From Desulfotomaculum nigrificans DSM 574 (lineage in GTDB: Bacteria > Bacillota > Desulfotomaculia > Desulfotomaculales > Desulfotomaculaceae): a DNA stretch of 64,000 bases. Shown one piece after another: positions 1 to 9,498 of the stretch. Within the stretch, counting starts at the first letter, position 1, and every line of letters starts with the position of its first letter. The notes under the pieces are model-generated. The model was given only the letters and a program-made list of their open reading frames with translations. It was not told where the DNA came from and searched no databases. The stretch lies in assembly GCF_000189755.2 (NCBI RefSeq), contig NZ_KI912183.1, forward strand, positions 2,234,257 through 2,298,256, written 5' to 3'. The translations under genes were made by a program, and so were the position numbers.

Positions 1-236
1 TCCCCGGCCATAATCAGCGGCCAGCGGCCTCCTGATTTGGGAGGAATTAATTGCAATTGACCGTTATGAATAGCCAGCAGGCCATCTTTATCATTTAGAG
101 AAACGTTTTTCTCTTTTAAAGTTGGACTAATAGAGTTAAGAGAGGAATCACTTTCTTGTCGTGCCAATTGGTCCGTATCATTTAATAATTCAGCAATAAT
201 TTTACTTAACAAATCCTCGTCAGTATATTTACCCAT
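1..236 (-). CDS. FapA/DUF342-like protein, N-terminal part (cut by window edge)
   Basis: Only the first 78 codons are present. The start is the ATG at 236, behind GGGTGAG. The N-terminal half is polar and unrecognised. After it comes the segment GLLAIHNGQLQLIPPKSGGR, which resembles the start of the beta-rich DUF342 (flagellar assembly protein A, FapA) domain, where an NGQ/NGK strand is followed by a P-x-x-x-G-x-x-P/W pattern. The gene follows the sensor gene by about 30 bases on the same strand, so the two are probably co-transcribed. The family assignment rests on a short motif and would need the rest of the gene. Confidence 0.5.
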   Translation of the reverse strand, partial: MGKYTDEDLLSKIIAELLNDTDQLARQESDSSLNSISPTLKEKNVSLNDKDGLLAIHNGQLQLIPPKSGGRWPLIMAG

Positions 237-267
237 TCATCTCACCCGTTGATTGGTTTTAAAAACT

Positions 268-1629
268 TCAACACTTGGATTTAGATAAACTAATTTCCAA
301 TGCTAACCGGGTCCCACTTTCCGATGTGCTTAATATTAATTTATCCAGATAACGAAACATTATAGAAAAGCCAAAACCCATAGATGTCTTGGTTGAAAAA
401 CCTTTAAGAAATACCATAAAGGGAAGTTTAGCCAACTCCATACCCGGCCCTTGATCAAGAACATAGAAAACAATCCGATTATCATTCAATGCTAACAAAA
501 CCTCTCCGCTACCGGCGTGTTTAATTACATTAGTCATGGCCTCAGAGAGGCAAAGGAGCGCTTTATGTCTCCTTGGACTTTGCCAGCTGGAACAAACTTT
601 GGTCAAATATTGGTCTATTTCCATTCGACACCTGGTAATATCGTGAGGGGAGTTTAGTTTAAAGTTTAAAACCGGCACTTCTTGTTGAATTATTTGAGAA
701 AATTCTGCAGGTGATGTTAAGTAAACCTTCTCCTGGGTGATCGCTCTGATAACATCCCGGTAAACCCGAAACATCTTATCTTTTTCATCCAGTACCTCAT
801 TTGATAACAATTCCATCCTTTGCTTCAAAGCATGATTTGTATCTAAAAACCGGTTAAAATTATTAGGCGTCAATCCTAAGTCAGCGGCTGCTCCCTCCGG
901 CAAATGAATGGAACTATAGTCTTTTTCTATTTCTGTCAGGCGATTGGTCATAACCCTTATTGGTTTAAGTAGGGAATAAACCATAACAAAACAGAGGGTT
1001 ACTATTATAACTGGTAAAATTAGTAATATAATTAGATTATATTTAAGCGAGCGGCCATCAAAATTTACAGTATCAGCTACGTTCATATGCAAACCTAAAA
1101 CAGCGGTGACTTTTCCTTTACTGCTCAATATAGGAATGCAGGATGATATCATCTTATTATCATTCACCGTAAAATAAGCACTAACTACCTCGCCTGAATA
1201 AGCTTGCCTTATTTTAGATTGTGGTAAACGGATTTCATTCTTATTGGCTTTTCCGGTGTAACTAATGTTAACCGCAAACTGCCAGGTATTAGCCCTATCA
1301 GTCGGCACCAGGATATATATCTGACTGATTTCCGGAAACTTTTGTCGGTAACTGATCAGAAGATTTTTTAACTTACCATCAATGTTTTTATCCCCATCTT
1401 TTCCCAATTTTATGGCAGGATTTTCATAAACATCTCCATCTATCTGTTCTGCAATTAATTTACCTATCGTTATTAAGTGTTCAGTTTTAGACTTTAAAAC
1501 GTATTCATTAAATTTTTTATTAAAAGTAAAATAGGTTATTAAAGAAAAGGAAATCATTCCAATAATTAACAGGAAAAATACTAACCTGTAAATTTTTTCT
1601 CCTTTAAGCCTGCTAATGATTACTTCCAT
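268..1629 (-). CDS. membrane sensor with Cache domain and RsbW-like ATPase domain
   Basis: A protein of about 453 residues. It has an N-terminal membrane segment (about residues 14-36), an extracytoplasmic Cache-like domain (about 40-190), a second membrane segment (about 197-221), a short HAMP-like stretch (KPIRVMTNRL) and a C-terminal GHKL ATPase domain with N-box EAMTNVIKHA, DQGPGM and a GFSTKTSMGFGFS lid. No histidine phosphoacceptor helix is seen, so it is closer to RsbW-type serine kinases/anti-sigma factors than to classical histidine kinases. The partner is not in the window. A GTG 39 bases upstream has no ribosome site; the ATG at 1629 has AAGGGGTG but very close spacing. It sits behind a c-di-GMP-I riboswitch, so its expression probably follows c-di-GMP level. 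Confidence 0.75.
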   Translation of the reverse strand: MEVIISRLKGEKIYRLVFFLLIIGMISFSLITYFTFNKKFNEYVLKSKTEHLITIGKLIAEQIDGDVYENPAIKLGKDGDKNIDGKLKNLLISYRQKFPEISQIYILVPTDRANTWQFAVNISYTGKANKNEIRLPQSKIRQAYSGEVVSAYFTVNDNKMISSCIPILSSKGKVTAVLGLHMNVADTVNFDGRSLKYNLIILLILPVIIVTLCFVMVYSLLKPIRVMTNRLTEIEKDYSSIHLPEGAAADLGLTPNNFNRFLDTNHALKQRMELLSNEVLDEKDKMFRVYRDVIRAITQEKVYLTSPAEFSQIIQQEVPVLNFKLNSPHDITRCRMEIDQYLTKVCSSWQSPRRHKALLCLSEAMTNVIKHAGSGEVLLALNDNRIVFYVLDQGPGMELAKLPFMVFLKGFSTKTSMGFGFSIMFRYLDKLILSTSESGTRLALEISLSKSKC

Positions 1630-1683
1630 CACCCCTTGCGTAATATTGGCACATAATTCTTGGTACACAAACTTTAAAAAACA

Positions 1684-1724
1684 AGAAAAACTACTTGCTT
1701 ATAGAAAAGCCTTGTTGCAAGTAG
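1684..1724 (-). terminator. intrinsic terminator, expression platform of the c-di-GMP riboswitch
   Basis: On the minus strand the arms CTACTTGC and GCAAGTAG (plus-strand 1717-1724 and 1691-1698) form a perfect stem followed by TTTTTCTTGTTTTTT. It lies directly 3' of the aptamer and 5' of the sensor gene, as expected for a transcription-terminating riboswitch. Whether ligand turns it on or off cannot be read from the sequence alone. Confidence 0.75.
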
Positions 1725-1727
1725 CTT

Positions 1728-1819
1728 TAAAAAATTATCAGCAACCGGCTGTCATGGTTTATTTAAACTTTAGACCCCGGCTTTGCGTCCTTGCCTTTCG
1801 ACAAGTTTGCCCTTTTTAA
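1728..1819 (-). promoter_or_regulatory. c-di-GMP-I (GEMM-I) riboswitch aptamer
   Basis: The minus strand carries the conserved GEMM-I core in order: AGGGCAAAC, a GAAA tetraloop in TCGAAAGG, GGACGCAAAGCC, a CTAAAG receptor-like element and a final GCCGGTTGC arm. A/T-rich P1 strands (TTAAAAA at 1813-1819 and its partner at 1728-1735) close it. It precedes the sensor gene at 1629 and lies just downstream of the EAL gene, linking this locus to c-di-GMP twice. Confidence 0.9.
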
Positions 1820-1870
1820 CTCAGATATTCAATTTTCAATATTTTTTATTTCTCTTTAAACCGAAATAAT

Positions 1871-2584
1871 TTACTTATCTTCACATTGATTTTTCCATGG
1901 TTTCGGTTTACCCAGTAAAAAACCTTGCCCATAATTTATCCCCATCTCAACTGCTGTTTTTAAATCTTCAGGTCTTTCTATTCCTTCTAAAATAAGTTGG
2001 GTACTTCCATGAAATAACTCCACTAAACTTTTAATAATCTTCTGCTTTCGCATATGGGTTGATAAATTCGCAGTAAAATACCGATCAACTTTTACAAATT
2101 CCGGTTCTAATTCGATCCAATGTTGAAAAGATGAATAACCTATTCCCAGATCATCTACTGCAATTTTAACTTGTCTTGCCTTTAGTTCTTTAACAATTTT
2201 CTTTAACGTTGTCCAATCTTTTACAGGTTCATTTTCAGATAGTTCTATAGCAATGGGAATTCCCTTTACAAGGTACTTATCATAAACATAAAGAAAATCT
2301 TCTTTTAACAATGTAGAAGGAAAAACATTAATGAATAATACTCCAACATCAGAACTAACTTGTTTTGATGCCATTATCAAAGACTGTAAATCGAGTTCAT
2401 TCAGTAATCCGGCTGTTTTTGCTTTATTAAATATATTTTCTGGTGAAAACTTACCATTTGAATAACGCAGCAATGCTTCATAACCTATGATTTCTCTAGT
2501 ATTCAAATTCAAAATTGGTTGGTACCAATGAGTTATTAAATCTATATTTAAGATACTCTCCAAATATTTACTATTCATGTACAT
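1871..2584 (-). CDS. EAL-domain cyclic-di-GMP phosphodiesterase
   Basis: A stand-alone EAL domain of 237 residues, close to the normal domain length, with no sensor or GGDEF part. The catalytic signature looks complete: GYEALLR, an N in FINVFP, E in IELSENE, the DD loop AVDDLGIGYSS, K and D in VKVDRYF, E in LEGIER, and GQGFLLGKP. It should hydrolyse c-di-GMP to pGpG in the cytosol. The first ATG (2584) has AAAGGA only two bases away; the second ATG (2578) has better spacing and may be the true start. The left 34-bp inverted repeat begins 20 bases upstream, so its promoter must lie in or beyond the putative invertible segment. Confidence 0.88.
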   Translation of the reverse strand: MYMNSKYLESILNIDLITHWYQPILNLNTREIIGYEALLRYSNGKFSPENIFNKAKTAGLLNELDLQSLIMASKQVSSDVGVLFINVFPSTLLKEDFLYVYDKYLVKGIPIAIELSENEPVKDWTTLKKIVKELKARQVKIAVDDLGIGYSSFQHWIELEPEFVKVDRYFTANLSTHMRKQKIIKSLVELFHGSTQLILEGIERPEDLKTAVEMGINYGQGFLLGKPKPWKNQCEDK

Positions 2585-2604
2585 TTTTCCTTTAAGGTAG
2601 CTTC

Positions 2605-2638
2605 ACAAATGTAACAAATTGCTTAAAATGTTACTTTA
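2605..2638 (+). repeat. left 34-bp inverted repeat of the invertible element
   Basis: This stretch is the exact reverse complement of 3464-3497 over all 34 bases. Inside it are two facing half-sites, ATGTAACA and TGTTACTT, separated by an AT-rich centre, which fits an 11-6-11 tyrosine-recombinase core site. It lies between the EAL gene and the recombinase gene. Confidence 0.93.
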
Positions 2639-2704
2639 CTTATTGAGAAACTCTTTGGCTTTTCCTGGTTCTGATAAAGATAGATAAGGTATCATAATTT
2701 ATAT

Positions 2705-2754
2705 TTGATTTGTATATGTAACATTTAATATAATATATAAGCTAATTGTTACAT
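2705..2754 (+). promoter_or_regulatory. recombinase promoter overlapped by extra half-sites
   Basis: TTGATT (2705-2710) and TATAAT (2729-2734) are 18 bases apart and point to the recombinase gene. The half-site ATGTAACA (2716-2723) and its complement TGTTACAT (2747-2754) flank the -10 box; the same motif forms the arms of the 34-bp repeats. This suggests that the recombinase binds its own promoter, which is inference. Confidence 0.5.
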
Positions 2755-2782
2755 ACAGCTGTTAATTAAAGGAGGTTACTTT

Positions 2783-3343
2783 ATGACAGTTGAACCAATT
2801 AGAAATAAAAACAAAATAAAACAAATGTATCAATATTTAAATAGAAAAGATTCTAAATATGGACTTCTTTTTAAGTTCGGTCTTAATACCGGCTTAAGAA
2901 TTAGCGATATTCTACCGTTAAAAGTTAAGGATATTTTTAATAACAATGGAGAATTTAGAGATTATTTAGTTTTAATAGAAAAGAAAACCGGGAAAGAAAA
3001 GAAAATCAAGTTAAATAACGCCCTGCGCAAAACTATTAAAGCATATGTTAAAAACAACCAGCTCTCCTTTGAACATTATATTTTTGCAAGTCGCAAAGGT
3101 AATCATATTGGTCGAGTACAAGCCTATCGCGTGTTAAAAGAAGCTGCTGATATTGTAGGAATCGAAAATTTCGGTACCCATAGTTTACGTAAGACATGGG
3201 GATATTGGACTTATAAAATATCTCGGTATAATATCGGACTTATAATGGATACTTTTAACCACAGTTCACAGAGTATAACACTCCGTTACATAGGAATGAA
3301 TCAAGACCAAAAAGATGAACTATATTCACTTGTTCAATTTTAA
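2783..3343 (+). CDS. small tyrosine recombinase (putative DNA invertase)
   Basis: A 186-residue protein made only of the catalytic domain of the phage-integrase/XerC family. Conserved residues are visible: R in GLRISDIL, K in KKTGKEKK, the HSLRKTWG box (H-x-x-R), H in FNHSSQ and the nucleophile Y in TLRYIG. It lacks the N-terminal core-binding domain of Xer proteins, like the small inversion recombinases of the FimB/RecV type. The start ATG follows AAAGGAGG at 2769-2775. The gene is AT-rich and lies entirely between perfect 34-bp inverted repeats, so it would flip with its own segment. A strong terminator follows. Confidence 0.88.
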   Translation: MTVEPIRNKNKIKQMYQYLNRKDSKYGLLFKFGLNTGLRISDILPLKVKDIFNNNGEFRDYLVLIEKKTGKEKKIKLNNALRKTIKAYVKNNQLSFEHYIFASRKGNHIGRVQAYRVLKEAADIVGIENFGTHSLRKTWGYWTYKISRYNIGLIMDTFNHSSQSITLRYIGMNQDQKDELYSLVQF

Positions 3344-3353
3344 ACTTAAAATA

Positions 3354-3406
3354 AGGCAAAATACTCCTAATTCATTTATCAATTAGGAATATTTTGCCTA
3401 TTTTTT
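3354..3406 (+). terminator. strong terminator after the recombinase gene
   Basis: Arms AGGCAAAATA (3354-3363) and TATTTTGCCT (3390-3399), with an inner CCTAATT/AATTAGG stem, are followed by six T. If the segment inverts, this hairpin would point at the EAL gene and block read-through. Confidence 0.85.
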
Positions 3407-3463
3407 AATTTATGGAGCAAACATGCAGGAACAATAAGATTTACGTCGAATGTATCAACGTAT

Positions 3464-3497
3464 TAAAGTAACATTTTAAGCAATTTGTTACATTTGT
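3464..3497 (-). repeat. right 34-bp inverted repeat of the invertible element
   Basis: Exact inverted copy of 2605-2638. Together they bound a segment of 825 bases that contains the recombinase gene, its promoter and its terminator. The bases outside the two copies differ at once, so the repeat is sharply delimited. Confidence 0.93.
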
Positions 3498-3661
3498 ATA
3501 AATACAATTCGTTATTTTAGTAATAATTTTTTAAAAATACTGATTATTTTGGTATTATTGAACTAAGTTTCCTGGGCTGTTTATTCCCGGGAAATCGTTC
3601 AATTAAGATTAAATACCAACCCTGACCCCGGTGTAATATGACGGAAAATTTTAAATTTTCC

Positions 3662-3690
3662 TTGAGATATTTAAGTTGGAATTATATAAT
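3662..3690 (+). promoter_or_regulatory. promoter of the glycine riboswitch/symporter transcript
   Basis: TTGAGA (3662-3667), a 17-base spacer and TATAAT (3685-3690) lie about 50 bases upstream of the glycine riboswitch. A palindrome GGAAAATTTTAAATTTTCC precedes it. The region between the right repeat and this promoter holds only AT-rich sequence and a short hairpin near 3570-3594. Confidence 0.65.
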
Positions 3691-3739
3691 ATAAATTAAC
3701 TAACTGACACCTAAGAACTGAATATTTCATGCTGGATGA

Positions 3740-3905
3740 GATTTACGGGAGAGTGGCTTTAGCCCGCCAACGGAGTAAAACTCTCAGGTGCTTGGATTCA
3801 GCAGGACCGTAGATCGACAGAACTCTGGAGAGATCCCATAATGGGGCGCCGAAGGGGCAAAGCGACAGTAATTAGCAGAATCTCTCAGGCAAAAGGACAG
3901 AGGAT
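3740..3905 (+). promoter_or_regulatory. tandem glycine riboswitch
   Basis: Two glycine aptamers lie in series. The first carries GGGAGAGTGGC, GCCGCCAACGGAGT-like joining sequence and AAACTCTCAGGTG. The second carries CTCTGGAGAGA, GCGCCGAAGGGGCAA and AATCTCTCAGGCAAAAGGACAGAGG. This is the standard gcvT-type pair. It precedes an amino-acid:sodium symporter rather than gcv genes, a known pairing in which glycine limits its own uptake or export. Confidence 0.93.
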
Positions 3906-3961
3906 TCGGTTTAAATGGAAAAGTTTTCTGAGATACTCCCAAGTAAACCGAAGCCATCCAG

Positions 3962-3993
3962 AGTCAAATCATTTTTCATGATTTGGCTTTTTT
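3962..3993 (+). terminator. terminator in the glycine riboswitch expression platform
   Basis: AGTCAAATCA and TGATTTGGCT form a ten-pair stem (one G-U) followed by TTTTTT. A competing pairing of TTCGGTTTA (about 3905) with TAAACCGAA (about 3944) lies between aptamer and terminator, consistent with transcriptional control. Confidence 0.8.
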
Positions 3994-4122
3994 ATTATTA
4001 TCGGGCTTTATACGGTTACCCCGGGGGAGGTGATGTAAGGAAAGCAACACAAATAAGCCGGATTACATGCGCCTAAAGACAAACGCAGCAACGGAAATTA
4101 GCAAAAGGGGGAATTGATTTTA

Positions 4123-5520
4123 ATGGAAGCATTTCATGAGTTTGTCAAATGGATTGACGGTTACCTCTGGGGACCACCTATGCTGGTTCTGCTTTTCGGT
4201 ACGCACTTATTCTTAACATTCCGCACCAGAATCATTCAAAAATATATCTTTAAAGCTATTAAACTCTCTGTTACTAAAGATAGATCCGCTGAAGGGGATG
4301 TTAGTCAGTTTGGCGCTCTAACCACTGCACTGGCTGCCACTATTGGTACCGGTAATATTGTCGGGGTTGCCACCGCTGTAGCCCTGGGGGGGCCTGGTGC
4401 CGTGCTATGGTGCTGGCTGACAGGGGTATTCGGTATTGCCACCAAGTACTCCGAAGCATTATTGTCCGTTAAATATCGGGTTAAAACCTCTGATGGTACA
4501 ATGCTTGGCGGTCCTATGTATGCACTGGAAAACGGTCTTGGTCAAAAGTGGCTGGCCGTATTATTCTGTATTTTTACTTCCTTTGCTGCTTTTGGTATTG
4601 GCAACACGGTACAGGCCAACTCTATTTCCAGCATGGTCAAGGAAACATTTAATATCTCTCCGTATATCACAGGTATTATCCTGGCCATCTTGACCGGTAT
4701 CGTAATTCTCGGTGGGGTTAAATCCATTGCCAGGGTATGTGAAAAGCTTGTTCCCTTTATGGCTATCTTTTATGTACTGGGCTGTATCATTATCTTAGCT
4801 ATGAACGCTAAGTACGTTGGCCCCGCCATCGCTTTAATTGTGAAACATGCCTTTACACCGCAAGCAGCCGGAGGCGGTTTTGCCGGTGCAACGGTAATGA
4901 TGGCGGCCCGCTACGGGATTGCCCGCGGTCTGTTCTCAAACGAATCCGGCTTGGGATCCGCTCCCATTGTTGCGGCAGCCGCCCAAACCAGAAACCCTGT
5001 CCGCCAGGCCCTGGTATCTTCCACCGGAACATTCTGGGATACCGTTGTTGTTTGTGCCATGACCGGTTTGGTATTAGTAAGCAGCATGCTTGAAAATCCT
5101 GCAGCTGTTCAGGGTTTACAGGGAGCCGCCCTAACCAAAGTCGCTTTTGAGCAAATTCCTATTATCGGACCTATTGTCTTGACCGTTGGACTCTTAACAT
5201 TTGTATTCTCCACCATTCTCGGATGGTCTTATTATGGTGAAAGAGCCATTGAATACCTGTTTGGTAAAGCTGCTATCAAGCCTTACCGGATTGTCTGGGT
5301 TATATCCGTCTTTTTAGGTTCTGTTATGACTTTGCCGTTGGTTTGGGATTTGGCCGATGCCATGAATGCCATGATGGCCATCCCGAACTTGATTTCCTTA
5401 CTCCTCTTAAGCGGGGTGATTGTAGCAGAGACCAGAAAGTATCTCTGGGAAGGCAGCTTGGATGAGGTTTCCAATGAACCCATCCGCCTTTACGGTGAAC
5501 AAAAGCAGGTCAGTATTTAA
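4123..5520 (+). CDS. alsT: sodium:alanine/glycine symporter (AGCS family)
   Basis: A polytopic inner-membrane transporter of 465 residues, normal for the alanine-or-glycine:cation symporter family. Family motifs are visible: GALTTALAATIGTGNIVGVATA near the N-terminus in part, GGPGAVLWCWLTG, and the GLFSNESGLGSAP loop. It imports a small neutral amino acid with sodium. The upstream tandem glycine riboswitch points to glycine as the relevant substrate. A TTG lies nine bases upstream, but AAAGGGGG at 4105-4111 is best spaced for the ATG at 4123. A bidirectional terminator separates it from the convergent PTS operon. Confidence 0.9.
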   Translation: MEAFHEFVKWIDGYLWGPPMLVLLFGTHLFLTFRTRIIQKYIFKAIKLSVTKDRSAEGDVSQFGALTTALAATIGTGNIVGVATAVALGGPGAVLWCWLTGVFGIATKYSEALLSVKYRVKTSDGTMLGGPMYALENGLGQKWLAVLFCIFTSFAAFGIGNTVQANSISSMVKETFNISPYITGIILAILTGIVILGGVKSIARVCEKLVPFMAIFYVLGCIIILAMNAKYVGPAIALIVKHAFTPQAAGGGFAGATVMMAARYGIARGLFSNESGLGSAPIVAAAAQTRNPVRQALVSSTGTFWDTVVVCAMTGLVLVSSMLENPAAVQGLQGAALTKVAFEQIPIIGPIVLTVGLLTFVFSTILGWSYYGERAIEYLFGKAAIKPYRIVWVISVFLGSVMTLPLVWDLADAMNAMMAIPNLISLLLLSGVIVAETRKYLWEGSLDEVSNEPIRLYGEQKQVSI

Positions 5521-5542
5521 GAACTAATAATATGTTGAAAGT

Positions 5543-5573
5543 GAAAAAGAGGGTAGATTCTACCCTCTTTTTC
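5543..5573. terminator. bidirectional terminator between alsT and ptsI
   Basis: A perfect 15-bp palindrome (arms GAAAAAGAGGGTAGA and its complement with one central base) is T-rich on both strands, serving both convergent transcripts. Confidence 0.9.
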
Positions 5574-5582
5574 CTATTGGAC

Positions 5583-7337
5583 CTATTTGCTGTTATAAAG
5601 ACCTTTTTCCTTTTGGAATTCCGCCAGTTTTTTACGCACTTCACTGGTTGTAGTGAGGGTCTGGATTTCTTCTAACAATTTTTCACATTCCCCGCGGCTA
5701 ATCTGTGAAATAACCTGCTTCACTTTTTTGATGGATCCTGCCACCATACTCCATTCATCAAGCCCTAACCCTATTAAAAGAGGAGCTGCTAACGGGTCTC
5801 CGGCCATACCACCGCACATACCGGTCCATTTACCTTCCCGGTGAGATGCCTCAATAACTTGTTTGACAAGGCGAATGACAGCCGGGTGAAGGTGATCATA
5901 CAAATAGCCAATTTTTTCATTCATGCGATCCACAGCTATCGTATATTGAACAAGATCATTTGTCCCGATACTGAAGAAGTCAACCTCTTTCGCAAATTTA
6001 TCAGCCAAAATGGCAGTGGAAGGGACTTCTACCATAATCCCTACTTCAACCGACGGGTCAAATTCAACTCCTTCTTTTGCCAGCTGGTCCTTAACTTCCT
6101 CAAAGATATGCTTAGCCTGTCTCCATTCTTCCAGGCTCGATATCATAGGAAACATGATTTTTACTTTACCATAGGCACTGGCTCTTAAAATCGCCCGCAG
6201 CTGGGTAACAAGCAATTCGCTTTGATCTAAACTAAGGCGGATTGCTCGGTATCCTAGAAACGGATTCATTTCTTTGGGCAAGGAGAGGTACGGAAGCTCT
6301 TTATCTCCCCCAATATCCAGCGTACGGATAATAACCGGCTTATCTCCCATGGTCGATACAACCTGTTTATAGGCTGCAAATTGTTTTTCTTCCGAGGGCA
6401 TGGTTGTTTCATTCATAAACAAAAATTCTGTTCGATATAACCCGATACCCTCAGCACCATGTTCCAGGGCCGGTTTAGCCTCTGCCGGCGTTCCAATATT
6501 GGCTGCTATTTCCACCCGGAATCCATCCGTTGTTATCGCCGGCTTAAAGGTAAATTTTTCCAGTTCCTGTAACTCTTCCTCTTCTCTTTTCCTTTTTACT
6601 TCGTATTCTTTTGTAAGCTGATTATCAGGGTTTACAATACAAGTACCGGTGCTGCCATCAATAATAAGAAAATCCCCGTCATTAATTTGTTCAATATTTT
6701 CACCCAGACCAACGACAGCCGGAATACCAAGGGAACGGGACAATATTGCCGTGTGTGATGTTTTACCACCCACGCGAGTAACAAATCCCTGAACGTATTT
6801 TTTGTTTAATTGTACAGTATCGGAAGGTGCCAAATCATCAGCTACCAAGATAACTTCTTCTTTAATGTCTGATAACTGTACGCCTTTTTTTCCCTGGAGA
6901 TGCAGAATTAGGCGCTTTCCTACATCCCGTACATCAGCAGCTCTTTCCCGTAAGTATTCATCATTCATTCCTTCAAATATCGTGGCAAACCGTTCGACCA
7001 CTTCATTTACTGCTTTTTCGGCAGAATATTGGTGCTGGCGGATTCCTTTTTCCATCTCCGGGCAAAAGGAAGGGTCATTTAAAAAAGCTTGCTGTGCCAT
7101 CAAAATAGCTGCCTTATCTTTACCAAGCTCTGCTCTTGTCCGTTCAATGAGTTCATTAAGTTCCCGGTGTGATTTTTCTTTAGCCAGCTGCAGCCGCTGT
7201 AGCTCATCATTGATTTGTTCTTCAGATATCGTCTCATGTACGGGCTTGTCCTGATTAATAAGCGGTTTATAAAGGAAAGCCTTTCCTGAACGTATCCCTT
7301 CAGATACGCCCGTACCACTGATCATTATTCCTGCCAT
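5583..7337 (-). CDS. ptsI: PTS enzyme I, phosphoenolpyruvate-protein phosphotransferase
   Basis: A 584-residue cytosolic protein of normal length. It takes phosphate from PEP and passes it to HPr. Domains in order: HPr-binding N-terminal domain, the phospho-histidine swivel domain with GGKTSHTAILSR, and the PEP-binding barrel with GIGLYRTEFLFM, TLDIGGDKELPY, FSIGTNDLVQYTIAVDR and the catalytic cysteine in GMCGGMAGD. The start overlaps the ptsH stop (TAATG arrangement), implying translational coupling. It is the last gene of the fructose PTS operon. Confidence 0.97.
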   Translation of the reverse strand: MAGIMISGTGVSEGIRSGKAFLYKPLINQDKPVHETISEEQINDELQRLQLAKEKSHRELNELIERTRAELGKDKAAILMAQQAFLNDPSFCPEMEKGIRQHQYSAEKAVNEVVERFATIFEGMNDEYLRERAADVRDVGKRLILHLQGKKGVQLSDIKEEVILVADDLAPSDTVQLNKKYVQGFVTRVGGKTSHTAILSRSLGIPAVVGLGENIEQINDGDFLIIDGSTGTCIVNPDNQLTKEYEVKRKREEEELQELEKFTFKPAITTDGFRVEIAANIGTPAEAKPALEHGAEGIGLYRTEFLFMNETTMPSEEKQFAAYKQVVSTMGDKPVIIRTLDIGGDKELPYLSLPKEMNPFLGYRAIRLSLDQSELLVTQLRAILRASAYGKVKIMFPMISSLEEWRQAKHIFEEVKDQLAKEGVEFDPSVEVGIMVEVPSTAILADKFAKEVDFFSIGTNDLVQYTIAVDRMNEKIGYLYDHLHPAVIRLVKQVIEASHREGKWTGMCGGMAGDPLAAPLLIGLGLDEWSMVAGSIKKVKQVISQISRGECEKLLEEIQTLTTTSEVRKKLAEFQKEKGLYNSK

Positions 7338-7606
7338 TAGGATTCACCAAACTTTTCTTCTACCAGTTGCACCAGTGCTGCAGCGGCCTGTTCTGCATCA
7401 TCTCCACTGGCTTCAATGGTAATTTTGGTACCTTTGGTAAGACCCAGACTCATCAGTCCTAAGATACTTTTAGCGTCTGCGGCAGATCCGTCTTCCTTTT
7501 TTATTTTAATTTCGGATTGAAACTCACCGGCTTTTTGGACAAAGAGTTGAGCCGGCCTGGCGTGCAGGCCTGTTTCATTTAAAATAGTTACCTCTTTTGT
7601 TACCAC
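7337..7606 (-). CDS. ptsH: phosphocarrier protein HPr
   Basis: An 89-residue HPr with the phosphorylated histidine in GLHARPA (about residue 15) and the regulatory serine in DAKSILGLMSLG (about 47), the site used by HPr kinase in Firmicutes. HPr carries phosphate from enzyme I to the EIIA domain, and Ser-phosphorylated HPr acts in carbon catabolite control. No hprK or ccpA is in the window. AGGAGG is well placed before the ATG at 7606. The gene lies between the EIIA gene and ptsI. Confidence 0.97.
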   Translation of the reverse strand: MVTKEVTILNETGLHARPAQLFVQKAGEFQSEIKIKKEDGSAADAKSILGLMSLGLTKGTKITIEASGDDAEQAAAALVQLVEEKFGES

Positions 7607-7620
7607 TGTAAAGTCCTCCT

Positions 7621-8073
7621 TTAAACTGTCTCTAATACCTGCAAAACTTCTTCCGGTGACTTAGCTTCCTTTAGCCGGTTCCGAAATTCTTCGTGGATGA
7701 GTTTACGAGCAATGGCAGCTAAAATTTGTAAATGTTCATTTCCCGCCTGTTCTGCCGGAACAGCAATTAAAAACACAATGGATACCGGATTGCCATCAAG
7801 TGATTGCCAATCAACGGGGTGGGCCAGTTTGGCAAATCCTAATGCCGGCGCAGCTACCCCGTCAGATTTGCCATGGGGAATCGCCACTCCGAAACCGACC
7901 CCTGTTGTTCCCTTTTGCTCACGTTCTAATACCGTTTGTACATAGGCCTCTTTGTTGGTGACAGCCCCCGTTTTGACCATTTGCTCAGCCATTTGTTGAA
8001 TACACTCTTCTTTAGTTTTAACATCCAGGGAAAGCTGAATGGTTTCATGTTTAAGGATTTCCACTAACTTCAC
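7621..8073 (-). CDS. fruB: PTS fructose-type EIIA component
   Basis: A 150-residue single-domain EIIA of the mannitol/fructose family. The active-site histidine lies in GVAIPHGKS, preceded by GTTGVGFG, and the LIAVPAEQ and HLQILA segments are typical. It receives phosphate from HPr and passes it to the EIIB domain. It is encoded separately from EIIBC, whereas many fruA proteins are fused ABC. The gene symbol is a convention and may differ in this lineage. Confidence 0.88.
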   Translation of the reverse strand: MKLVEILKHETIQLSLDVKTKEECIQQMAEQMVKTGAVTNKEAYVQTVLEREQKGTTGVGFGVAIPHGKSDGVAAPALGFAKLAHPVDWQSLDGNPVSIVFLIAVPAEQAGNEHLQILAAIARKLIHEEFRNRLKEAKSPEEVLQVLETV

Positions 8074-8118
8074 CGGTATATCCTCCCATTTTAATATTTA
8101 GTTAAGATTTTAAGTTTT

Positions 8119-9498
8119 TTATACTTCAGTAGCATTTGCAGGCCGTTTTAAAAGATTTACCAGTATGGCCGTAATTACAGTTCCGATAATTATGGCCACC
8201 ACATACATGAACAAGTTCCCTACAGCGTGTGGTATCGGTAAGACAAAAATGCCACCGTGGGGTGCGCGCAAAGTTGCGCCAAACAACATAGAAAGTGCAC
8301 CTGTTACTGCGGAACCGGCCATAATGGCTGGGATTACCCGGAGCGGATCGGCCGCGGCAAATGGTATTGCTCCTTCTGTAATGAAAGAAATGCCAAGGGC
8401 GGCAGCTGCTTTGCCTGCTTCTCTTTCTTCCGGTGTGTATTTCTTGGGTGAAAGAACTGTCGCCAGCCATAAACCTAAAGGCGGTGTCATGCCGGCTGCC
8501 ATAACAGCTGCCATAGGTTCATAAATTGCACTTCCTAAGAGTCCCACAGCAAAGGTATAGGCTGCTTTATTTACCGGGCCACCCATATCGAAGGCCATCA
8601 TGGCCCCTAAAATAAGCCCAAGGATAACGGCATTGGTTCCGGTTAACCCGCTTAGCCACTTTGTCAGACCATCCATAATAGCCTTTACGGGACCCCCGAT
8701 GACATAAATCATAAGCAGACCGGTTGTTAATGTGGCTAAGAAAGGTATGATTAATACCGGTTTTAAACCTTCCAGATTCTTTGGCACTTTAATTGTGTCT
8801 TTCAACCATTTGGCAATATAGCCGGCAACAAAACCGGCAATAATGCCGCCCAGAAAACCCGCGCCAATTTTTGACGCCAGCATACCACCTACCAGTCCGG
8901 GTGCCAGCCCGGGTTTTTCGGCAATGGAATGAGCAATAAAACCGGCCAGAATCGGTACCATTAAGGCAAAGGCTGAATTGCCGCCGATGTCCATTAATGC
9001 CGCAGCCAGTGTTCCTTTTTCTTTGAAGGCCTCAATACCAAAGATAAATGAGATAGCAATAATTAATCCCCCGGCCGCCACCAGCGGAATCATGTAGGAA
9101 ACACCGTTCATCAGGTGTTTATATACACCGGTGCGCTGGGCGCTGCGTTCAGCCTTTGTTTTTTCTATTTCTGCCACGTAATCCCTGGTAGCTGGTTTTT
9201 TATTCAGCGCCTCATCCAACAGTTTTCCGGGATTCTTAATGGCCTCGCTAACCGACACTTTAACCACAGGTTTATCACCAAAACGTCCCTCATCAACATC
9301 GGTATCCGCTGCGATAATGATAGCGTGAGCCTCGGCGATATCCTCTTCTGTTAAAGCATTTTCCACACCAACGGCCCCGCGGGTTTCCACCTTAAGTTCT
9401 ATATTTTTTTCTTCGGCTGCTTTCTTAAGTGCTTCCGCAGACATGTATGTGTGGGCGATACCGGTAGGACATGCTGTAACGGCCAAAATCTTTTTCAT
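8119..9498 (-). CDS. fruA: PTS fructose-specific EIIBC component
   Basis: A 459-residue membrane permease. Residues 1-100 form EIIB with the phospho-cysteine in VTACPTGIAHTYM. The rest is the fructose-type EIIC with about ten membrane segments, including GGPVNKAAYTFAVGLL and FITEGAIPFAAADP, both typical of the family. It transports fructose and phosphorylates it to fructose-1-phosphate, the substrate of the adjacent fruK. The ATG at 9498 follows GGAGGAG. Confidence 0.95.
   Translation of the reverse strand: MKKILAVTACPTGIAHTYMSAEALKKAAEEKNIELKVETRGAVGVENALTEEDIAEAHAIIIAADTDVDEGRFGDKPVVKVSVSEAIKNPGKLLDEALNKKPATRDYVAEIEKTKAERSAQRTGVYKHLMNGVSYMIPLVAAGGLIIAISFIFGIEAFKEKGTLAAALMDIGGNSAFALMVPILAGFIAHSIAEKPGLAPGLVGGMLASKIGAGFLGGIIAGFVAGYIAKWLKDTIKVPKNLEGLKPVLIIPFLATLTTGLLMIYVIGGPVKAIMDGLTKWLSGLTGTNAVILGLILGAMMAFDMGGPVNKAAYTFAVGLLGSAIYEPMAAVMAAGMTPPLGLWLATVLSPKKYTPEEREAGKAAAALGISFITEGAIPFAAADPLRVIPAIMAGSAVTGALSMLFGATLRAPHGGIFVLPIPHAVGNLFMYVVAIIIGTVITAILVNLLKRPANATEV

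Follow-up and report, generated by a model that had tools for sequence, protein, structure and literature searches.

A compact, very probably self-inverting promoter cassette with its own tyrosine recombinase beside a c-di-GMP phosphodiesterase gene in Desulfotomaculum nigrificans and related clostridia

Directly upstream of a gene for an EAL-domain c-di-GMP phosphodiesterase, Desulfotomaculum nigrificans DSM 574 carries a cassette that is very likely a self-contained, self-inverting ON/OFF promoter switch. The invertible promoter is a known kind of element; the cassette described here, very probably self-inverting, is a new variant of it that depends on a tyrosine recombinase. Related cassettes correspond to one well-supported recombinase clade across clostridia. 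An earlier note on this DNA had proposed a compact module with the recombinase inside the segment, which is confirmed, and had missed that the module belongs to a widespread family. All positions are coordinates of the window, the 64,000-nt stretch of contig NZ_KI912183.1 that was analysed.

Architecture of the segment and its target genes

The segment and its neighbours comprise the following features:

3..236, minus strand: start of the FapA gene (631 aa in full)
268..1668, minus strand: HATPase-domain protein (membrane protein by reading), second of the target set
1737..1821, minus strand: c-di-GMP-I riboswitch aptamer in the gap between the EAL and HATPase genes (77.5 bits, gathering cut-off 35)
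1871..2584, minus strand: EAL-domain c-di-GMP phosphodiesterase, first of the target set (E 1.1e-40)
2605..2638, plus strand: left inverted-repeat arm, with the 28-bp recombination site at 2609-2636, ATGTAACAAAT-TGCTTA-AAATGTTACTT
2705..2734, plus strand: probable recombinase promoter, TTGATT-N18-TATAAT, picked out by eye
2716..2754, plus strand: two extra facing half-sites over the recombinase promoter (2716-2723, ATGTAACA; 2747-2754, TGTTACAT), suggestive only
2783..3343, plus strand: tyrosine recombinase, 186 aa, catalytic domain only, with R39, K71, H133, R136, H160 and Y169 present
3354..3406, plus strand: intrinsic terminator of the recombinase gene (hairpin z -6.95; 0 of 200 shuffles equally stable)
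3427..3451, plus strand: outward sigma-H-type promoter motif, AGGAACAATAAGATTTACGTCGAAT, directed away from the EAL gene in the assembled orientation
3464..3497, minus strand: right inverted-repeat arm, with the 28-bp site at 3466-3493, same sequence as the left site

The two arms are 34 nt each, 100% complementary and 825 nt apart, and they enclose the recombinase gene, its strong terminator and the outward promoter motif. Several points of the earlier note hold here: the perfect repeat, the recombinase gene (by its match to PF00589) and terminator hairpin inside it, the facing half-sites with the geometry of a recombinase core (ATGTAACA-N12-TGTTACTT, 28 bp), and the 20 bp between the left repeat and the ATG of the EAL gene. 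Among the inverted repeats listed for positions 1-9000 of the window, this pair is the longest perfect one; the sole longer pair (35 nt, 83% complementary) is the terminator hairpin. A search of the 3.05-Mb single-contig genome with the inner 32 bases, allowing up to 3 mismatches, found no further copy of the repeat. The left arm has no support for a terminator-like hairpin of its own (z above 0 on both strands). The assembly records a single orientation of the segment.

The recombinase matches Pfam PF00589 (E 2.5e-24; 86.4 bits, cut-off 27.1) and has the full set R39, K71, H133, R136, H160 and Y169, which we take to be the catalytic residues (R-K-H-R-H-Y) of a tyrosine recombinase, so that it qualifies as a tyrosine site-specific recombinase. 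With all six residues in place and the gene intact, there is no sign of the dead enzyme that the earlier note had named as refuting its proposal. The same residues are found in 46 of 46 full-length close rows, the window counted (the partial, frameshifted or duplicate rows L037, L038, L039, L051, L121 and L124 are left aside). The domain search and the predicted model (mean pLDDT 91) agree that there is no N-terminal core-binding domain, and the nearest folds are XerA and XerH (best Foldseek hits). Against NCBIfam, the XerA-type model gives 4.2e-17 and the ‘tyrosine-type DNA invertase’ models 1.5e-8 and 7.9e-6; the protein scores under the curated cut-off of all nine models matched, those of XerC and XerD included. 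It is the only close copy in the genome, where three other matches are just 23-27% identical.

Past the window, FapA is followed on the same strand by an HD-GYP gene and a SpoIIE-type phosphatase gene, and the EAL, HATPase, FapA, HD-GYP and SpoIIE-type genes probably form one operon. The EAL protein reads, by eye, as catalytically intact by its motifs. At E 1e-30, the EAL gene has matches in 2/9 genus genomes (its own and one at 34% identity) and the HATPase gene in 1/9, its own; FapA finds only matches of 26-31% identity in the genus. The set looks like an accessory region, since the first two genes lack a close match in the other 8 genus genomes and the third is weakly matched. The earlier note was right that the EAL gene adjoins the repeat, and it missed the larger gene set with its c-di-GMP riboswitch and predicted OFF state.

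A glycine riboswitch aptamer (3815-3910, plus strand) precedes a sodium:alanine symporter gene (4114-5520) on the other side of the cassette. The promoter motif of the cassette currently faces this riboswitch, about 360 bp upstream of it.

Recombination sites and inversion in relatives

Both 28-bp sites, ATGYAACA-N12-TGTTRCAT with some mismatches, flank the recombinase gene in 43 of 52 related rows, so the site pair is not a matter of chance. These rows lie at about 61-100% identity and include the window; L121 duplicates L029, and L123 and L124 represent one element. Among the nine rows without both sites, five meet a contig end (L038, L039, L123, L124, L126), three have a single site that can be recognised (L037, L099, L122), and L017 has none.

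Left and right sites were compared at 43 loci, i.e., 42 distinct loci from the scan plus L037, whose right site was chosen by eye. Across site positions 12-17, left and right differ in 0 of 258 comparisons; at variable outer positions, up to 28% of loci show a difference. Positions 12 and 17, like the conserved half-site bases, barely vary between loci and carry little information; the informative positions are 13-16, which are unlike in 56-76% of comparisons between loci. When left and right sites are re-paired at random 5000 times, the mismatches average 115 and never fall below 91, a figure that serves as a contrast and not as a probability because related loci are not independent. The 43 loci have 32 different hexamers. 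A hexamer that is matched within each locus and varied between loci is the mark of strand exchange that requires identity in the overlap, and the pattern fits an 11-6-11 site composed of 11-bp arms and a 6-bp crossover region.

Several cassettes may occupy one genome (A05DMB11 has four, UBA1308 two and G229 two), and their hexamers are all different, a result that is powerless as a test of private addressing because random pairs of loci nearly always differ. At L019, three sites with the same hexamer surround one recombinase, and the outer right site (of the pair at 4652-4679 and 4740-4767) could allow a longer inversion.

Additional half-sites occur near the recombinase promoter of other family members. 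After three arms under 70 bases were dropped, a forward extra half-site was found in 16 of 40 left arms (base-shuffled mean 6.4, maximum 13) and a facing one in 11 of 40, a count made without a control. The fourth base of the extra half-site is that of the locus’s own site in 12 of the 16 (permutation p 0.0005, kinship ignored). This arrangement over the recombinase promoter is suggestive of possible autoregulation.

Turned cassettes are found in two sets of relatives. Contigs C18 and C25 of genome G446 end in the same element, within which 187 bp upstream of the recombinase gene, the gene itself and 108 bp after it are identical. The shared element ends in both contigs at the outer edge of the hexamer of the right site, and identity stops at the outer edge of the hexamer in the left site as well. 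Compared with L125, the single-contig locus of a sister species, C18 is collinear (83% over 4759 columns, left flank plus element). The flank of C25 corresponds to the right flank of L125 reverse-complemented (84% over 1792 columns). These alignments (L123 and L124 versus L125) are most simply explained if the assembly captured one locus in both of its orientations; an inverted duplication of the element inside that locus is a possible, less simple alternative. In the second set, both flanks are shared by L032 and L098 (82% over 670 columns, 83% over 3505), with the cassette in opposite orientations in the two genomes; the viral-contig loci L128 and L129 have the orientation of L032.

Contig ends inside a site are a further sign. 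The Caloranaerobacter contig C98 ends at site base 26, the last before left and right sites diverge, and contig C49 begins at site base 1. Contig ends inside a site are recorded for L009/L190 and for L126, which starts inside one as judged by eye. The breaks in Caloranaerobacter and L126 back inversion in a supporting role only.

By the usage applied to invertons, inverted sites bound the segment in the window, and both orientations have been found in relatives only, whose recombinases are 65-72% identical to that of the window. Comparison with these relatives supports the earlier note’s self-inverting segment (G446; L032/L098), and at the window locus itself inversion is inferred from the identical sites and the intact recombinase. 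The segment might instead be a decayed or locked switch that has inherited its architecture and no longer flips in this strain, as the one recorded orientation and the existence of decayed relatives would allow. We consider this unlikely: the two sites of the window are identical over 34 bp although 35 of the 43 loci have mismatches outside the hexamer, and every catalytic residue is present.

Promoter motifs, targets and polarity

Promoter motifs were sought in both arms and compared with shuffles. Reading outward, the right arm has a sigma-H-type motif (AGGAW...GAAT) in 14 of 46 cases (shuffle mean 0.36, maximum 2) and a sigma-A-type motif with up to 2 mismatches in 22 of 46 (mean 4.6, maximum 9), shuffles that provide a contrast and not an independent test because the patterns were written after the arms had been viewed. 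One right arm has both types, and 11 of 46 have neither at the cut-offs used; the inward control found sigma-H in 0/46 and sigma-A in 4/46. Toward the recombinase, the left arm has no sigma-H-type motif (0/43) and a sigma-A-type motif in 15/43 (shuffle mean 6.5, maximum 13), which is the recombinase’s own promoter.

An outward promoter in the left arm, which would make the assembled orientation the ON state, was considered and rejected: sigma-H motifs number 0 and sigma-A motifs 2 among 43 left arms, not above shuffles (means 0.08 and 5.1). A promoter there may have been missed by the motif search.

All 14 sigma-H-type motifs are 25 nt long. The same is true of the single motif in 3.2 kb around the genome’s spoVG, which sits just upstream of that gene, and of a C. 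difficile SigH promoter in Table 3 of PMC7438776, a paper that gives promoter examples. A search of 3.3 kb around the genome’s spo0A found none of these motifs. A printed sigma-H consensus was sought in the literature and not found, the relevant passage of PMC8032392 containing none.

Since the right arm, behind the recombinase, is the one with the outward promoter motifs, a cassette should be ON only when the right arm abuts the target. The left arm of the window cassette is on the EAL side, so the EAL operon is predicted to be OFF in the assembled orientation, as in most copies found. Here the recombinase would bind the two 28-bp sites and invert the roughly 0.89-kb segment containing its own gene. 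The promoter behind the recombinase terminator points outward and, as assembled, would face away from EAL; after inversion it would read through the site into the EAL gene, whose start codon would be 66 bp away from the -10 element. Transcription would continue past EAL to the genes for HATPase, FapA, HD-GYP and the SpoIIE-type phosphatase, the genes further along also lying behind the c-di-GMP riboswitch. Given the sigma-H-type motif, ON cells would express the target at the transition to stationary phase or sporulation. The polarity, sigma factor and output of the window switch are in each case predictions from sequence. The earlier claim that inversion exchanges the promoter DNA of the EAL gene is supported, with the correction that the relevant promoter is the outward one at 3427-3451 and not the recombinase’s own.

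The genes beside the cassettes are of a restricted kind. On the 5' side of the recombinase (the left side), where all 44 genes were scanned singly, 36 of 44 loci have a chemotaxis, c-di-GMP or FapA gene: HD-GYP-type HD_5 in 13, CheW in 7 (four of them CheA), MCP signalling in 5, FapA in 4, response regulator in 4 and EAL in 3. Two more are truncated MCP-type sensors (L014, L027), and six are others (L021, L034, L038, L098, L116, L119). On the right side, where the family tally lists 25 of 101 families, at least seven of 46 genes have such a domain; these are L021, L034, L039 and L116, where the cassette is turned, L027 (a repeated copy), L008 (GGDEF) and L013 (CheB). In a phmmer comparison, a left gene has a homologue among the other left genes in 38 of 44 cases, and a right gene has one among the left genes in 8 of 46 (Fisher p 1.9e-11, kinship of loci ignored), one of the eight being the flank of L032 that is shared with L098. 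In orientation to the target, 38 cassettes lie one way and five the opposite way (L021, L034, L039, L098, L116). One expectation from the family held in Caloranaerobacter, where the flank absent from the contig of the cassette was located on another contig and begins with a GGDEF-EAL gene. The Defluviitalea locus (L008) has a GGDEF-CBS gene (4763-5620, minus strand) on the far side of the cassette as well, so that FapA or signalling genes border it on each side.

Of 49 other sources scanned, 9 have a c-di-GMP-I-class riboswitch no more than 300 bp beyond the target-side site, and in five of these (L011, L024, L025, L114, L119) it is 24-35 bp from that site; L007 and L099 have one elsewhere at the locus. 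At such loci, inversion would supply transcription and the riboswitch would gate it by the second messenger that several of the targets are expected to degrade. The neighbour at L119 is an IS110-type transposase gene beside the riboswitch.

Distribution, mobility and known systems

The family scan covered one genome per species (84,980 species), and the best 80 of its 81 matches are 79 distinct loci. Extra searches of 100, 113 and 398 genomes, each with the source genome included, gave 11 (E 1e-20), 4 and 14 (E 1e-70) matches in overlapping sets. In a tree of 97 proteins made with a quick method, the site-bearing rows fall into one group with SH-aLRT 99, and at least one site is recognisable in 46 of the 47 rows of that group (L037, L038, L039, L051, L080, L082, L084, L121, L124 and L129 are outside the tree). 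L043 is the only one of 45 relatives (33-53% identity) with a strong inverted repeat on its flanks within 900 bp; L041 and L046 have weak distant ones, and some of the 45 loci are short on one side. The L043 repeat (2228-3194; 50% identity, Syntrophomonadaceae) is its own, 53 bp and nearly perfect, with another sequence.

The nearest recombinases to that of the window, among the matches listed, are those of Caloranaerobacter and Defluviitalea (87% identical), and the recombinase of the genus mate G004 groups with Desulfosporosinus. About 0.94 kb separates the right site from a conjugation coupling protein gene at L032 and L128, and the cassette locus of L032, L098, L128 and L129, with its HD-GYP gene and c-di-GMP riboswitch, is possibly carried by an integrative conjugative element. 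This scattered distribution, together with the one lineage beside a coupling protein gene, is what might be expected if the unit were a small IS-like mobile element whose inverted repeats are its ends and whose recombinase moves it rather than flips it. Against this, the genome of the window has a single copy, cassettes have turned between unchanged flanks in relatives, and the cassette precedes one gene class. Because the same-genome copies of A05DMB11, UBA1308 and G229 have diverged and differ in their hexamers, and because polarity is mostly kept, such movement is a minor rival that we judge improbable. It is more doubtful still, to the point of being negligible, that the repeats are regulator operators or plasmid-type resolution sites, although plasmids (881 of 72,556 records, E 1e-20) and phages (144 of 50,697, E 1e-15) commonly carry the wider family (under 60% identity, best listed 49%) and extra half-sites overlap the recombinase promoter: the sites are inverted, both orientations occur in relatives, and a perfectly matched hexamer is needed by strand exchange, not by operators.

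Among known systems, the H segment of Salmonella Hin is about 1 kb long, has 26-bp inverted sites and carries an outward promoter that gives ON/OFF control of an adjoining operon. The cassette works like Hin but is not a Hin-family member: the gene is inside the segment, and the enzyme is not a serine recombinase. To our knowledge, the recombinase gene does not lie inside the invertible segments of the C. difficile switches. The passages on Salmonella Hin place the invertase gene within the invertible segment (PMC5903667) and describe a serine recombinase that works with an enhancer (PMC3798978); the cassette, in contrast, has a tyrosine recombinase from another enzyme superfamily, dif-like 11-6-11 sites and signalling targets instead of flagellin. 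FimB/FimE-type and Xer enzymes are alike in their catalytic-domain-only enzyme, Xer-like fold and dif-like 28-bp site, but the sites of the cassette surround the recombinase’s own gene and the protein scores under the NCBIfam cut-offs. The 28-bp 11-6-11 site is as in Xer/dif; a protein of 186 aa with inverted sites is not the full-length Xer of chromosome dimer resolution.

In C. difficile, invertible promoters precede c-di-GMP phosphodiesterase or motility genes (passages of PMC9286219 and PMC5903667), and the pdcB switch with its invertible promoter has been demonstrated there (PMC9286219), so the parallel drawn in the earlier note is correct. Among the switches described in those passages (flg, cmr, cwpV, pdcB, pdcC), RecV serves several, unlike the self-contained cassette, and the pdcB enzyme is stated to be unidentified (PMC9286219). 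Sekulovic et al. (2018) report from read pairs that signalling and chemotaxis are the most prevalent functions near invertible sites of Clostridia; examples in the sections available are an HD-type phosphodiesterase in Desulfitobacterium dehalogenans, an MCP in Anaerotignum propionicum and chemotaxis genes in C. thermocellum, as well as an 844-bp Providencia segment enclosing a recombinase gene (PMC5903667). Some of these Clostridia inversions are probably members of the cassette family; in those sections, no common cassette, recombinase, site or promoter is described, nor any transfer. Gut invertase groups have been linked with invertons, one tyrosine-recombinase group being tied to a mostly-Clostridia inverton group (PMC11892184). 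A full-text literature search (subscription papers and supplements excluded) found no published description of the family.

A broader proposal, to which we give even credence, is that the cassette is a portable, self-addressed phase-variation device, a tyrosine-recombinase counterpart of Hin spreading among clostridia. Each copy would have a private 6-bp crossover address, so that several copies could flip independently in one genome, and lineages would plug a sigma-H or sigma-A promoter into chemotaxis and c-di-GMP operons, some stacked on a c-di-GMP riboswitch. If this is true, a compact transferable device would give clostridia, many of which are environmental, bistable motility and second-messenger signalling, and one enzyme and one site rule could explain why most of the inversions found in Clostridia lie at genes for signalling and chemotaxis. 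Any genome can be examined for the rule (by site, matching hexamer, polarity and target class), and the cassette may serve as a single-enzyme inversion tool with exchangeable hexamers.

Decay and rearrangement are also seen in the family. L017 has lost its sites, and the recombinase is frameshifted in L037 and apparently in L051. L099 has lost its left site and has, by reading, a transposase-like gene close by. At L027, the start of an MCP gene and the upstream region of the cassette are repeated with 100% identity (1-1348 and 3511-4858, 3510 bp apart), which points either to target and cassette having been duplicated in tandem or to an artefact of scaffolding (single N’s at 2699 and 5828).
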